In this document: positions 21,909 through 26,503 of the stretch, one piece after another
How positions within the stretch are numbered: position 1 is the first letter of the stretch
How the letters are laid out: each line of letters begins with the position of its first letter
Assembly (NCBI GenBank): GCA_020027965.1
Contig: JAHRHE010000012.1
Span: 1-37,147 of the forward strand
DNA length: 37,147 nt
Source: Nitrospirota bacterium
Lineage (GTDB): Bacteria; Nitrospirota; Nitrospiria; Nitrospirales; Nitrospiraceae
Direction of reading: 5' to 3'
Notes under the pieces: generated by a model
The model's database searches: none
What the model was told of the DNA's origin: nothing
What the model saw: only the letters and a program-made list of their open reading frames with translations
Translations under genes and position numbers: made by a program

Positions 21909-22295
21909 GGTACTGACCTGCCTCTGATCAGCGGCGTTCAAAATATCATGATTCCCGATGCCCGGGCTACCCCGTGAGCCTCTGACTTTCCGTTTCAGGG
22001 AGGCCATCTACGAGTTCCAGTAAGACTCGGGCCACCTCCTCAATGGGAGATCCGGGCCGCCTCTGCCAACCGTAAAGCAGGTGTCCTCGGCACGGTGACG
22101 TGTCGGGCAAGACGGCTGCTCTGGCCGGGCGGCGCAGTTATCCTTCTGTCTTACGCAGGTTATCTTCTCAGATACATTCAGAGTACTGAAGATGAGAACC
22201 CGTGCGAGCTTTCCTGACCAAGATGCCACTCATTAAGTTGATAATTCAATAGGTTAGCTGGATCTTTCCCCCTGAGGCCTGGCGGGAGTTCAGCC

Positions 22296-22311
22296 TGGTA
22301 CTGAGCTTGCT
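22296..22311 (+). promoter_or_regulatory. Sigma-54-type promoter candidate
   Basis: TGGTACT-N4-TTGCT fits the -24/-12 pattern TGGYRYR-N4-TTGCW with one mismatch; GG and GC are separated by ten bases. It lies 82 bases before the first small membrane-protein gene. No activator binding site can be assigned. Confidence 0.4.
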
Positions 22312-22324
22312 GTATCACTCCAGC

Positions 22325-22356
22325 GAAGCGGTTGGTGAGGGAAGCGGTTGGTGGGG
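22325..22356 (+). repeat. Tandem direct repeat of 16 bases (two units)
   Basis: The unit GAAGCGGTTGGTGAGG is repeated once with one A-to-G change. It lies in the untranslated leader of the small membrane operon. Confidence 0.7.
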
Positions 22357-22392
22357 GAAGATGGATCAAAGGAATCACGGAGGAAACCGAAC

Positions 22393-22515
22393 ATGGTCAT
22401 CCTACTGCTGGTGCTGATGGGCTGGGGCATGCTGCTGACGATCAGCGCCTTATTCGGGACGCTGGTGCCCGGGGTCATAGAAAACTTGACCGACGGGGAT
22501 CAGGAGAAGTGGTGA
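22393..22515 (+). CDS. Small single-pass membrane protein (40 aa), first of a paralogous pair
   Basis: A 40-residue protein beginning MVILLLVLMGWGMLL and continuing ISALFGTLVPGVIENL with an acidic tail (DGDQEKW). It has a good ribosome site (CACGGAGGAAAC, nine bases). The next gene at 22598 encodes GWGLLLALSALFGTLVSGVME, so the two are clear paralogs. The hydrophobic part occupies about residues 2-27. No family known to me matches. The existence of the paralog, with a matching start context, is the main argument that this short frame is real. Confidence 0.6.
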   Translation: MVILLLVLMGWGMLLTISALFGTLVPGVIENLTDGDQEKW

Positions 22516-22597
22516 TAGGTCACCAGAGACCGGAGGGAGACTGGACCATGACCAGGCCAGTTGTGCGCGTGAGCGATCAGGGAGCGAGAGGCTGAAC

Positions 22598-22741
22598 ATG
22601 ATCACGATCATCGTCTTTGCGGTGCTCATCGGCTGGGGCTTGCTGCTGGCGCTCAGCGCCTTGTTCGGCACCCTGGTATCTGGGGTGATGGAAAAGCCCG
22701 CTGACAAGGATCAGGACGACTGGTCATGGACCAGGCGGTAA
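22598..22741 (+). CDS. Small single-pass membrane protein (47 aa), second of the pair
   Basis: A 47-residue protein (MITIIVFAVLIGWGLLL, then ALSALFGTLVSGVMEKP, then a DKDQDDWSWTRR tail). It shares with the protein at 22393 the (G)WGxLLxxSALFGTLVxGV core, the acidic tail with D-Q and a C-terminal Trp. GAGAGG lies six bases before the ATG. The two genes arose by tandem duplication. Its function is unknown. It probably spans the inner membrane once. Confidence 0.65.
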   Translation: MITIIVFAVLIGWGLLLALSALFGTLVSGVMEKPADKDQDDWSWTRR

Positions 22742-22760
22742 GCGACCGGAGGGCTGAACC

Positions 22761-22913
22761 ATGACGTGGGCAATCGTAATGGGAGTCATCGCGTTGTTCG
22801 GAACCGTGGCGCTGAGGCAGGTGGTCACCGCAGCGAGTACGGGCTTCGCACCCGTCCCGGTCCAGACGCTGAAAGAATTGCGGCGCCGGATGGAATGGAG
22901 AAGCAGGAGATGA
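22761..22913 (+). CDS. Small membrane protein (50 aa)
   Basis: MTWAIVMGVIALFGTVALRQ is followed by a Val/Ala/Pro-rich stretch and a basic tail (RRRMEWRSRR). GGAGG lies eight bases before the ATG, and the GACCGGAGGG leader recurs near the preceding genes. The ALFGTV core weakly echoes the two upstream paralogs. Its stop overlaps the next gene's start (ATGA at 22910). Confidence 0.55.
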   Translation: MTWAIVMGVIALFGTVALRQVVTAASTGFAPVPVQTLKELRRRMEWRSRR

Positions 22914-23113
22914 GTGCCATGGTCGTCGCAATCCTGAAAGGGGTTGGTTTGATCGCGCTGGCCGCCGCCCCGTTCGGCTTTCTGCTGCTCATGCTCGCCG
23001 AGGCCCTCACGAGGAAGGGGAGGATTCCCACGTACCAGGTGACCTCCGTGCATCCCATCCGTGGAGGGCCCCCGATCAAGCGTACGGAGCACCCGATCAA
23101 GTACGCTGCGTGA
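22910..23113 (+). CDS. Small membrane protein (67 aa), last of the cluster
   Basis: The first residues are MSAMVVAILKGVGLI, then ALAAAPFGFLLLMLAEALTR, giving one or two helices. The C-terminal ~30 residues are soluble and basic (HPIRGGPPIKRTEHPIKYAA). An ATG at 22919 with AGGAG nine bases upstream is the alternative start; the 22910 ATG overlaps the upstream stop (ATGA), indicating coupling. I do not recognise a family. Confidence 0.6.
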   Translation: MSAMVVAILKGVGLIALAAAPFGFLLLMLAEALTRKGRIPTYQVTSVHPIRGGPPIKRTEHPIKYAA

Positions 23114-23433
23114 AGACACCCGGAGCTTGTGACGGAAGGCGTCGGAGCCTTGTTCAGGGCGGGCGGTGCCACCTGTCCTGAATGGTGGAGGCTTCAGTTC
23201 CTCCTGGGCCTCCACCCGTCACAACGTACGACGGATCCTCCGCCCCGAGGGCTCCCATCCAACCCCGCAGAACCCCGGGCCTCCTTCCCTTCGCGCCGCA
23301 GCCAGTGCCCGCCCCCGCCGCTCCCCTTGACACGTACCCACAGTCGTCCTAGCCTTGGGGCGTAAAAATGGCTCGCGCGGGGATAGAAGACGAAGGAGAA
23401 GTGAGCTGATCCGTCGTAACAGAGGAATCACAC
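23114..23433. other. Intergenic region with a promoter for the lipoprotein gene
   Basis: Apart from the promoter at 23327-23355 there is no convincing gene. A C-rich segment at 23299-23330 is shared with the region upstream of the DUF2934 gene at 24208. Confidence 0.5.
23327..23355 (+). promoter_or_regulatory. Promoter TTGACA-N17-TAGCCT (lipoprotein gene)
   Basis: TTGACA (23327-23332) and TAGCCT (23350-23355) are 17 bases apart, 78 bases before the lipoprotein start. The same spacer length and -10 recur at 24143 and 32782. Confidence 0.6.
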
Positions 23434-23967
23434 ATGAAAGCACTGGGTGGTGCCCTCGCCTTCCTCTTCGCTGTGGCTGTGATTCAAGGTTGCACAGGCA
23501 AGGAGGACACAACTAGTAGTAAGCAAATAGAAATAGAAACGGGTGGCGGGAAGACCCAGGAGGAAGCCCCCATCGAAAAGGCAGTACTTGACCTAGCCAA
23601 CGTCAGTACCCAATTCCCCAAAACAAAAGACCCCCAATCTATCTTTCGTTTCTATTTTCAAGACTACGCCGGGATTAATAACGGGAAGTCGGAATCTCGG
23701 AAGGATATTGAGAAATACCTCTCTGATGTGCTGGAACGGATCAATCTTGGCGAACCTATTGGTATCTCGGCCAAGGTTGCAAACATAAAAACCAGCGTTA
23801 CCGGTGCGTCAGGATGGGCAACCTACGATTTTGAGTATAAGTTAGGGAGTGGTGGAAGGGTCTTGCAGACTGATCAAGGCAAGTGCACTACTATCTTCAG
23901 GAAGCAGGGAGGTTCGTGGCTGATTCAGCATGAGCATTGTTCGACGGCAAACCCCTTTCTCCGGTGA
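23434..23967 (+). CDS. Lipoprotein with NTF2/SnoaL-like fold suggested
   Basis: A 177-residue lipoprotein; the lipobox is VIQGC (cysteine near residue 20). The mature region carries a low-complexity linker (residues ~25-45) and then PKTKDPQSIFRFYFQDYAGINNGK, with a closing GKCTTIFRKQGGSWLIQHEH typical of the NTF2-like/SnoaL superfamily (cone-shaped fold, often ligand binding). The 3' half is visibly richer in A and T than the neighbours (AAATAGAAATAGAAA), which suggests recent acquisition. It is probably transcribed alone from the TTGACA promoter. Confidence 0.7.
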   Translation: MKALGGALAFLFAVAVIQGCTGKEDTTSSKQIEIETGGGKTQEEAPIEKAVLDLANVSTQFPKTKDPQSIFRFYFQDYAGINNGKSESRKDIEKYLSDVLERINLGEPIGISAKVANIKTSVTGASGWATYDFEYKLGSGGRVLQTDQGKCTTIFRKQGGSWLIQHEHCSTANPFLR

Positions 23968-24001: not shown

Positions 24002-24099
24002 ACGTTGACCGTTGACGGCGCGGGCCCACTAGGCGTGAAGGGTGGTTCGTGAAGCGTATCTCGTCAGAAGTTTCACGAGATACGAGTTGCGAGCGACGG
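24002..24099 (+). repeat. Dispersed repeat, copy 1 (empty)
   Basis: Homologous to 24470-24615. It contains GGCGTGAAGGG, TCGTGAAGCG, and an inverted repeat GTATCTCGT/ACGAGATAC. Copy 1 lacks the 42-base insertion of copy 2 at the GCG|TATCTCG point (24054-24057). Confidence 0.85.
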
Positions 24100-24142
24100 A
24101 GGCCATCGCACTGGAGCCCCTGCCCGCCCCCCGACGCTGCCC

Positions 24143-24171
24143 TTGACACCTTCTCCCACACGGCATAGCCT
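24143..24171 (+). promoter_or_regulatory. Promoter TTGACA-N17-TAGCCT (DUF2934 gene)
   Basis: TTGACA (24143-24148) and TAGCCT (24166-24171) with 17 bases between, 36 bases before the DUF2934 start. The flanking C-rich sequence also matches the one at 23299-23330. Confidence 0.6.
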
Positions 24172-24207
24172 TGCGTCACTGACCTGATTCAGGGTCACTG
24201 CCATGAG

Positions 24208-24423
24208 ATGGGACACATGAAACCCAACAAATCGAAGCCGGCAAGCCGGAGACCTACGCGCCGCACTACAGAAGGTTCTCGAACACCTTCGGCGTCCGAA
24301 GAGCTTCACAAACGGATCGCCAAGCGTGCGTACGAGATCTACGAGCAACGCATCCGCCAAGGCGCCCTGGATGACTGGCTTCAGGCCGAACGGGAAATCC
24401 TGGGACACAAAGGTGGGAATTAA
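24208..24423 (+). CDS. DUF2934 protein
   Basis: A 71-residue protein with a basic, disordered start (KPNKSKPASRRPTRR) and the DUF2934 core HKRIAKRAYEIYEQRIRQG, then ALDDWLQAEREILG. DUF2934 proteins are short, of unknown function, and common in soil and aquatic bacteria. The paralog at 28488 shares RIA(K/Q)RAYE(I/L)YEQR and DWLQAER. The start may be 24208 or the next ATG at 24217. It precedes a repeat-rich intergenic stretch. Confidence 0.85.
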   Translation: MGHMKPNKSKPASRRPTRRTTEGSRTPSASEELHKRIAKRAYEIYEQRIRQGALDDWLQAEREILGHKGGN

Positions 24424-24469
24424 GGGGCCGGGAGTCTTTTTAGCCAGGAAACGCCGGGGCACCTCCAGT

Positions 24470-24615
24470 CTTGACTTTGACAATTGACGACGTGAGCCCG
24501 CTAGGCGTGAAGGGCACCTCGTGAAGCGCCCCTCGACAGGCTCGGGGCGCCCTGAGCCCGTCGAAGGGCGTATCTCGTCAGAGGTTTCACGAGACACGAG
24601 CTGCGAGCGACGAAT
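24470..24615 (+). repeat. Dispersed repeat, copy 2, carrying a palindromic insertion
   Basis: Same order of blocks as copy 1 (24002), but a palindromic stretch interrupts the GCG|TATCTCG junction. The GTATCTCGT inverted repeat has one mismatch here (ACGAGACAC). Confidence 0.85.
24529..24567. repeat. REP-like palindromic insertion
   Basis: An imperfect palindrome with arms CCCTCGACAGGCTCGGGGCG and its near complement around 24548. It is flanked on both sides by GCG (24526-24528 and 24568-24570), which copy 1 of the host repeat has once. Its CTCGACAGGCTC core resembles known intergenic palindromes of REP type. Confidence 0.75.
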
Positions 24616-24854
24616 AAGGTCTCCTTGAGTGCGCGATCCTTGGGTCGGGAGTCATTGCGAACGTCGGATGCCCTCGCGCCCCGAGCCCACACTCTCCATG
24701 AGCCCCTCTACTGTGACAGCCGATCCGCTCGGCCGGCGCGGCCGTGGTGCAATCCGCGCGAGATACGAGGTATGGGCGCGGAAGGTGACTCCAACGGTGC
24801 TGTGAGCAACTCCGTTCGTCGGGAGCCTCTCTTGTCACGATCACGGAATTCACG

Positions 24855-25466
24855 TTGAAGCCGGCATCTCGCACGCTCGTGTTCCATAAGCCCTATGGGG
24901 TGCTTCCCTGTTTTACCGATCCGAAGGGACGGCCGACGTTGGCCGATTATGTGGCGATCCCGGGGGTGTATGCTGCCGGGCGATTAGATCTGGATAGCGA
25001 GGGGCTCATGGTGCTGACGTCGGATGGGAGGTTGGCGCATCACATTACCGATCCGCGGCATCAACTCCCGAAGGTCTATCTGGCTCAGGTGGAACGCGTT
25101 CCGAACGAGGACGCCCTGGGGCGGCTGAGACAAGGGATCCTGCTCAATGGCACACGGACAAGGCCTGCTGAGGTTCAGGTGCTGTCGGCGGTGCCGGAGC
25201 TTCCTGATCGTCCTGTGCCGATCCGATTCCGCAAATCCGTGCCGACCGCCTGGTTGAAGATCACGCTGCGAGAGGGGCTGAACCGGCAGGTTCGGCGCAT
25301 GACGGCCGCGGTGGGACATCCGACGGTACGACTCATGCGGATCGCGATCGGAACGATGGTGCTGGGAGATCTCCAGCCCGGCCAATGGCGGGAATTGACG
25401 AGGAGCGAGATTGGGCGGATCTCTACGGCGAAGAGGGCAGGTTCAGGTGTGCATTCAAGGTCCTAG
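24855..25466 (+). CDS. rluE: 23S rRNA pseudouridine synthase, RluE family
   Basis: A 203-residue protein starting at a TTG (no ATG or GTG is available before LVFHKPYGVL). LVFHKPYGVLPCFTDPKGRPT is the RluE-type N-terminus. The catalytic motif GRLDLDSEGLMVLT holds the conserved aspartate. EGLNRQVRRMTAAVGHPTVRL is the standard RsuA-family core. It converts a specific uridine in 23S rRNA (U2457 in E. coli) to pseudouridine. The last three codons and the stop (TCA AGG TCC TAG) lie inside the left inverted repeat of the IS30 element, so the native C-terminus has been replaced or extended. Enzyme function is likely retained because the motif region is complete. Confidence 0.88.
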   Translation: MKPASRTLVFHKPYGVLPCFTDPKGRPTLADYVAIPGVYAAGRLDLDSEGLMVLTSDGRLAHHITDPRHQLPKVYLAQVERVPNEDALGRLRQGILLNGTRTRPAEVQVLSAVPELPDRPVPIRFRKSVPTAWLKITLREGLNRQVRRMTAAVGHPTVRLMRIAIGTMVLGDLQPGQWRELTRSEIGRISTAKRAGSGVHSRS

Positions 25467-26503
25467 TGCAACAGTTGGCGAAACGCATGAGCTGGGCTGT
25501 GCCAGTCCAGGACTTTTCTGGGGCGGTCGTTGACCATCGCCTGCACGTGTTTGATCTCTTTGCGCGAGAGCCGGTTGAAGCGCGTGCACGAGGGGAAGAA
25601 TTGGCGGAGCAGCCCATTGGTGTTTTCATTGGTGCCCCGCTCCCACGGGCAATGCCGGTGCGCAAAGTAGACGCGCATCGTCGTCTGCTTCGTGAAGAGG
25701 CGGTGCTCGCGCATTTCGGGACCCTGATCATACGTGAGCGAGCGACGGAGCTGGGCGGGGAGCGTCCGGAGTTCCCGCGCGAAGGCCTGCCGCACGGTGG
25801 CGGCGTCCTTGGCCTTCAGGGGCACCAGCAGTGTGAAGCGCGTCGTCCGCTCCACCAGGGTCCCCAGCGCGGACGCATTGGCATGGCCCACGAGCAAGTC
25901 GCCTTCCCAATGCCCCGGGACCGTTCGATCCGCGACCTCGGCCGGGCGCGTCTCGATGCTGACAATGTCCTGGATCGGCCGCGGGATGAGCCGAACCTTG
26001 TGGGGCCGGCGAAACCGGTGCCGCTGGCGCAAGTACCGGGTGAGTTCCCGTTTGAGCGTGCCCCGCGGGAGGACATAGAGGTAGGTATAGATGGCTTCGT
26101 GGGAGATGCGCATCGTCGGCTCTGCAGGATACCGCTGCAGCAACCCGCGCGCAATCTGCTCGGGCGACCACCGTTGAGCGAGGAGGGTGAAGACCGCCCG
26201 GCGCAAGCGCGACTGGACCGCCAGCTTCCGAGGCTTGCGCGGCCGGTGGGCCCAGCGCTGCGCCCGTTGATGGGCCCGCACCGCTCGATAGGTGACGGGC
26301 GAGGCGTGATGACGAGCCAGTTCGCGCGACACGGTGCTTGGGGCACGCCCCAGCGCGCGGCTGGTGGCCCGGAGACTATAGCCTGCAGCCAACATGCGAC
26401 TCAATTCCTCGCGCTCCATGAGGTTCAATCGTCGATACCGTGCCATGTGCAACTCCTTGGCTCCTGGATCGACCAGGATACAAGTGTTGCACTAGAACCT
26501 TGA
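25455..26503 (-). mobile_element. IS30-family insertion sequence, 1049 bp, complete
   Basis: The terminal inverted repeats are TCAAGGTCCTAGTGCAACA (25455-25473) and the complement of TGTTGCACTAGAACCTTGA (26485-26503), differing at one position. A single intact transposase fills the element. IS30 elements usually create 2-3-base target duplications; the flanks CAT and GCC do not match, so either the insertion was followed by change or the true ends are one or two bases away. It interrupts the end of rluE. Confidence 0.9.
25463..26452 (-). CDS. IS30-family transposase
   Basis: A 329-residue DDE transposase, apparently full length. An N-terminal helix-turn-helix (YRRLNLMEREELSRMLAAGY, then SLRATSRALGRAPSTVSREL) precedes the catalytic domain. 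The acidic triad is visible in GHWEGDLLVGHANASALGTL, LTYDQGPEMREH and ERGTNENTNGLLRQFFP. It catalyses excision and insertion of the element. The frame has no break, so it may be active. Confidence 0.92.
   Translation of the reverse strand: MHMARYRRLNLMEREELSRMLAAGYSLRATSRALGRAPSTVSRELARHHASPVTYRAVRAHQRAQRWAHRPRKPRKLAVQSRLRRAVFTLLAQRWSPEQIARGLLQRYPAEPTMRISHEAIYTYLYVLPRGTLKRELTRYLRQRHRFRRPHKVRLIPRPIQDIVSIETRPAEVADRTVPGHWEGDLLVGHANASALGTLVERTTRFTLLVPLKAKDAATVRQAFARELRTLPAQLRRSLTYDQGPEMREHRLFTKQTTMRVYFAHRHCPWERGTNENTNGLLRQFFPSCTRFNRLSRKEIKHVQAMVNDRPRKVLDWHSPAHAFRQLLH

Follow-up and report, generated by a model that had tools for sequence, protein, structure and literature searches.

A sigma-54-type operon of tiny membrane proteins in Nitrospirota with a conserved structured RNA at its 3' end

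The tiny-protein operon and its surroundings

The window, that is, the whole stretch of 37,147 nucleotides of Nitrospirota DNA analyzed here, carries four consecutive tiny frames on its plus strand. ORF1 (22393-22515) encodes a 40-aa single-pass membrane protein of family A7, and ORF2 (22598-22741) encodes its 47-aa tandem paralog. ORF3 (22761-22913) encodes a 50-aa membrane protein that reads MTWAIVMGVIALFGTVAL..., and ORF4, with the C-terminal end -KYAA, occupies either 22919-23113 (64 aa, from a better-spaced ATG) or 22910-23113 (67 aa). All four frames lie where the original prediction had placed short frames with a membrane helix and a ribosome site, and each contains a hydrophobic stretch preceded by a purine-rich ribosome site. 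The description of ORF1 and ORF2 as tandem paralogs is borne out by an identity of 57% and by the common segment WGMLLTISALFGTLVPGV / WGLLLALSALFGTLVSGV. The ATGA overlap described between ORF3 and ORF4 is present in the sequence, but it is probably accidental rather than a real junction. The motif AGGAG (22905-22909) abuts ATG 22910 and has a 9-nt spacing to ATG 22919, and ATG 22919 is thus the more likely start of ORF4, giving a protein of 64 aa.

None of ORF1-ORF4 scored above the cut-off in profile scans with Pfam, NCBIfam, PHROGs, and PADLOC, and a blastn search of plasmids with the operon region gave no match. The ending -AA of ORF4 recurs in several tiny proteins of the regulon described below (L003, L012, L041, and L075 besides the window), in the forms KYAA, RKAA, SKAA, and KKAA, and could be a candidate ClpX-type degron. 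Downstream of the operon, the plus strand carries a lipoprotein-like gene with a SnoaL_3 domain (PF13474) at 23434-23967. At 24073-24630, the repeated peptide-like reading STGSGRPEPVEGR appears on both strands, which suggests a palindromic REP-like repeat. A minus-strand frame at 25463-26452 reads, by eye, like an IS30-family transposase.

Five of the 235 genomes of the order have the ORF1/ORF2 family, namely the genome of the window and G013, G025, G035, and G198, which together represent four genera. The corresponding operons are labeled L003 (G013), L004 (G025), L005 (G035), and L012 (G198), and all four of these genomes have homologues of ORF2. The residues L, W, G, L, L, and G are invariant in six copies of the family. 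In L004 and L005, the first 25 codons of the second frame, which form the transmembrane part, differ by seven synonymous and no nonsynonymous changes. ORF3 is 30% identical to the second frame of L003, and the first frames of two further regulon sites (L041 and L075) look like ORF3 by eye. The frames of the ORF1 family are intact in four of the five genomes; in L012, the first frame meets no stop beyond the homologous region and extends into the second, so the G198 copy may be altered. No homologue of ORF4 was found by sequence; searches of 61 relatives and of the species collection returned only ORF4 itself or nothing. The arrangement of four genes is not fixed, as the window has four tiny genes, G013 has three, and G025, G035, and G198 have two each. 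In G011, the promoter elements and the RNA described below are present with no tiny gene between them.

The sigma-54 promoter and its upstream box

A sigma-54 (-24/-12) promoter, TGGTACTGAGCTTGCT, is located at 22296-22311 on the plus strand. The element has GG and GC at the canonical spacing, and both are kept in relatives. In all five operons, a strict scan places a sigma-54 site a short distance before ORF1, so the -24/-12 candidate of the original prediction is conserved throughout the ORF1 family; it is also kept upstream of a lone RNA copy (L021). The pattern TGGYMYN5TTGCT matches the own genome 17 times, compared with 12 times for the reversed pattern, and at this density a match shortly before any given gene has a chance expectation of about 2 in 10,000. 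By motif, position, and conservation, the operon counts as a sigma-54 operon, presumably dependent on RpoN.

An upstream box of the form TATC-N6-GATA, TATCTTCTCAGATA, lies on the plus strand at 22161-22174 and is probably the site of a sigma-54 enhancer-binding protein. It recurs in six of six conserved loci (the five operons and L021), always 131-158 bp before the sigma-54 site, with L012 having the version TATC-N6-GAT, and it is found in 1.2% of shuffled upstream regions. The distances between box and sigma-54 site form two groups, 131-135 and 155-158. In L021, which belongs to G011, the pair of box and promoter stands upstream of the RNA element with no recognizable small frame between. The own genome has one rpoN gene and 19 strong matches to sigma-54 activator domains; the enhancer-binding protein genes examined have no box close by, and no activator gene was identified beside the regulon sites. 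The 5' leader contains a 16-bp tandem repeat at 22325-22356 (plus strand), whose two copies, GAAGCGGTTGGTGAGG and GAAGCGGTTGGTGGGG, differ by one mismatch. This repeat, also part of the original prediction, is present as described and was not seen in the leaders of relatives.

A regulon behind the paired sites

The combined pattern TATCN6GAT-N115..145-TGGYMYN5TTGCT has matches in 123 of 175 genomes of the family, as against two hits of reversed controls, so the pair marks a regulon; pattern searches are the basis of these genome-wide counts. At least two more paired sites occur in the own genome, on contigs C43 and C169. Among 47 distinct regulon sites, 16 (34%) have, within 150 nt, a tiny frame (28-70 residues) that combines a membrane helix and a ribosome site, compared with 1.4% of random positions in the same DNA. 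The 47 sites are not phylogenetically independent, and several unrelated-looking families of tiny proteins occur among them.

Other genes behind or beside the sites encode PilZ proteins, response regulators, a Tle1-like catalytic domain, an Hcp-like protein, a ShlB-type POTRA protein next to TPS exoproteins (two-partner secretion), and a hybrid sensor kinase. These partners point to the cell surface without naming a signal. One regulon product (L067, on contig C43 of the own genome, G000) has 341 aa, with many Trp, Cys, Arg, and Glu residues; its frame starts about 225 nt after the sigma-54 site. It has repeated W..E...RC-like units and, behind them, a Trp-rich hydrophobic stretch. At L109 (contig C196 of G000), a coiled-coil, RNase Y-like gene is preceded by a sigma-54-like site, with a GTATC-N6-GATAC palindrome 197 bp further upstream.

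The structured RNA at the 3' end

The sequence after ORF4 folds into a multi-branched RNA at 23129-23222 on the plus strand. The closing helix P1 pairs 23129-23135 with 23216-23222 and encloses P2 (23136-23151), P3 (23153-23182, with a GUGCC loop), and P4 (23184-23216). The loop of P4 presents the anti-Shine-Dalgarno segment UUCCUCC at 23198-23204, and its UCCUCC is found in 22 of 22 aligned copies; this conservation is partly ascertained, because the homologues were found with models seeded on the P4 loop. The z scores of the minimum free energy against shuffles are -4.95 for the window, -3.57 for L004, and -5.72 for L005.

A model built on three and then eleven copies detects 21 elements in 19 of the 175 family genomes at E <= 0.001, and a weak Nitrospirota match from a species-wide scan provides the 22nd copy. 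In the 22 aligned copies, 92.4% of the pair cells are standard. Changes on both sides occur at 27 of 30 base pairs, with 120 double-change cells compared with 31.8 in shuffles, and slid controls collapse; the alignment was fitted to the model, which biases these counts in its favor. The weakest helix is P1 (70%), which is best in the operon copies; examples seen by eye are GUGACGG/CCGUCAC in the window and GUGUGAGU/ACUCGCAC in L012. The UGUGCC of P3 is found in 14 of the 22 copies.

The Rfam covariance models gave no hit to the RNA, either at gathering thresholds or at E<=10. A pattern scan of a collection of 84,980 species, with a pattern that spans only part of the variety of the family, returned 51 hits, mostly by chance. 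The model kept four strong hits, all in Nitrospirota, besides the weak Nitrospirota hit and a weak, probably chance hit in another phylum. The RNA has one copy in the own genome and one or two copies per genome elsewhere, and its identity as a dispersed REP-like repeat was rejected on these numbers.

Two gene contexts of one RNA

In four of the five operons (the window, L004, L005, and L012), some 15-35 nt separate the last tiny frame from the start of the RNA. No copy was seen behind the G013 operon (L003) or at the other regulon sites. About 16 other copies, in many genomes of the family, end operons of another kind and are located close to the stop codon of a gene of the HD-domain (PF13487) or MauG/cytochrome-c type. 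These loci (L019, L020, and L022-L035) often face bacterioferritin-like genes; apart from the HD domain, the names were given by eye. The enhancer/sigma-54 pair is absent from all 16 of them. Thus, one type of RNA is found in two gene contexts, and its association extends beyond the tiny proteins, as it also ends operons without this promoter. G035 and G198 have one copy of each context kind. A zinc-ribbon-like gene of 50-72 aa (CPxC...CxxCG), or a remnant of one, follows the RNA in L004, L005, L020, and L029, which include both contexts.

Proposed function and alternative explanations

While the anatomy of the operon and its RNA, from promoter and box to the ORF1 family, the enrichment of tiny proteins, and the fold with its invariant loop, is well supported by comparison of sequences, we infer its function. 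The reading that we favor, with confidence evenly divided for and against, is a surface or stress module under the control of sigma-54 and an activator, in which micro-membrane proteins are combined with a 3'-UTR RNA that perhaps acts by anti-SD pairing. An enhancer-binding protein at TATC-N6-GATA (22161-22174) would contact, by DNA looping, the sigma-54 RNA polymerase at 22296-22311 and turn the transcript on in response to a specific envelope or surface signal. The four tiny single-pass proteins encoded by the transcript would be inserted in the inner membrane, where they may be small partners that modulate larger membrane complexes. The transcript would end in the multi-branched RNA (23129-23222), with an exposed UCCUCC loop able to pair with Shine-Dalgarno sequences. 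This 3' end, either released or retained, may serve as a regulatory RNA that lowers the translation of selected mRNAs, with the operon's own GGAGGAA site possibly among its targets. The UUCCUCC loop is complementary to GGAGGAA. This sequence is the ribosome site for ORF1 and, in L004 and L005, for the second frame, so the RNA could feed back on its own operon, yet almost any strong ribosome site fits the loop. The partners of the regulon (PilZ, response regulators, Tle1-like, Hcp-like, and ShlB/TPS proteins) fit with surface biology.

The alternative that survives best, although we consider it doubtful, assigns the RNA to the operon end only, as a GC-rich terminator or a structure against exonucleases. 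Its loop would be kept because the fold or a bound protein requires it, and it would not act in trans. On this view, UCCUCC may sit in the loop of a terminator or stability hairpin. Nearly every copy stands at a gene end near a stop codon, the RNA is common to unrelated operons, and several copies at HD loci have short U-rich stretches after P4. At the window copy, however, no intrinsic terminator (a GC hairpin with a U-run) was found, as P1 closes the structure with no U-run behind it. Moreover, the loop is constant in all 22 copies while the stems vary, and the promoter pair of L021 stands before an RNA with no recognizable gene between, which would be odd for a mere terminator.

A membrane-stress response of the phage-shock kind, with small proteins sensing or relieving membrane damage under a PspF-like activator, is improbable. 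The combination of sigma-54 with small membrane proteins is a theme of the Psp system, and envelope-related genes occur in the regulon. The operon differs from Psp in gene content: its products have no match above the cut-off to PspA, PspB, PspC, or PspD in Pfam or NCBIfam. The phage-shock comparison made in the original prediction is not supported, as ORF1-ORF4 have no significant match in Pfam, NCBIfam, PHROGs, or PADLOC and the regulon genes examined behind the promoter pair are of the PilZ, response-regulator, Tle1-like, Hcp-like, and two-partner-secretion kinds rather than psp.

It is quite improbable that the tiny proteins are accessory subunits of respiratory complexes, comparable to CydX or CydH and induced with an alternative electron-transport chain. 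Their size, single helix, and early Trp are similar, and ORF2 matches CydH of NCBIfam below threshold (E 0.057), but its 13.4 bits compare with a cut-off of 30, and no cyd or other oxidase genes were seen in or adjacent to the operon or, within their short loci, beside the relatives. Spurious frames, with a real promoter and RNA and no proteins made, are very improbable, for although ORF4 has no homologue found, L021 has no small frame, and the first frame of L012 has no stop after its homologous part, the six invariant residues of the ORF1 family, the purely synonymous changes in the transmembrane part of the second frame of L004 and L005, and the repeated occurrence of tiny membrane frames behind this promoter in further genera all speak against them.

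The surface or stress module can be extended, more tentatively, to an undescribed sigma-54 regulon with a GTATC-N6-GATAC enhancer and a preference for tiny single-pass membrane proteins. Part of this regulon would end in a new, Nitrospirota-specific class of RNA with an anti-SD loop controlling translation, so that one signal would yield both micro-proteins and a riboregulator. Nitrospira-type bacteria account for much of the nitrite oxidation worldwide and are hard to grow. To our knowledge, little is known of their gene regulation, and a literature search for Nitrospira with sigma-54 or enhancer-binding terms found general papers. Three elements go beyond the original prediction, namely the activator box, the regulon, and the structured RNA behind ORF4. 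If correct, they would give these bacteria a concrete regulon with a recognizable enhancer, overlooked micro-membrane proteins, and an RNA class that has no match in Rfam.

Comparison with known systems

The PrsK/PrsR regulon of PEP-CTERM systems also has an enhancer box and a -24/-12 promoter before surface-related genes and was found by comparing upstream regions (Haft 2006, PMC1569441; Aquincola pepA, PMC9850573). Box 1 of PrsR includes TTTACA and is separated from the sigma-54 site by about 63 nt (PMC1569441). Control of the window operon by PrsR was rejected, as its box is TATC-N6-GATA at 131-158 bp. Pfam and NCBIfam give no PEP-CTERM match for ORF1-ORF4 or the downstream lipoprotein, and none of the targets seen is a known PEP-CTERM gene.

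RhpR of Pseudomonas syringae, a two-component regulator, represses T3SS genes from a site of the form GTATC-N6-GATAC (PMC4191427). This is the same palindrome as the regulon box; in the available part of that report, RhpR is not presented as a sigma-54 activator, and the likeness is provisionally taken as coincidence.

The system that the window operon would work most like is ccaF1-CcsR1-4 of Rhodobacter sphaeroides, in which a small protein is combined with structured 3'-UTR RNA carrying an anti-SD loop. The loops of CcsR carry anti-SD motifs of the CCUCC type. The small-protein gene and the stress sRNAs derived from its 3'-UTR are under the same promoter (PMC8625941). CcaF1 is an RNA-binding DUF1127 protein, and CcsR comprises four related RNAs whose maturation involves RNase E (PMC8625941). 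In contrast, the tiny products of the window are membrane proteins, and a single multi-branched RNA with no Rfam match takes the place of the four. Membership in the ccaF1-CcsR type was rejected, as no DUF1127 match reaches the Pfam cut-off. If the proposed function is true, the window operon would be a further case of a micro-protein operon joined to a regulatory RNA under one tightly gated promoter.
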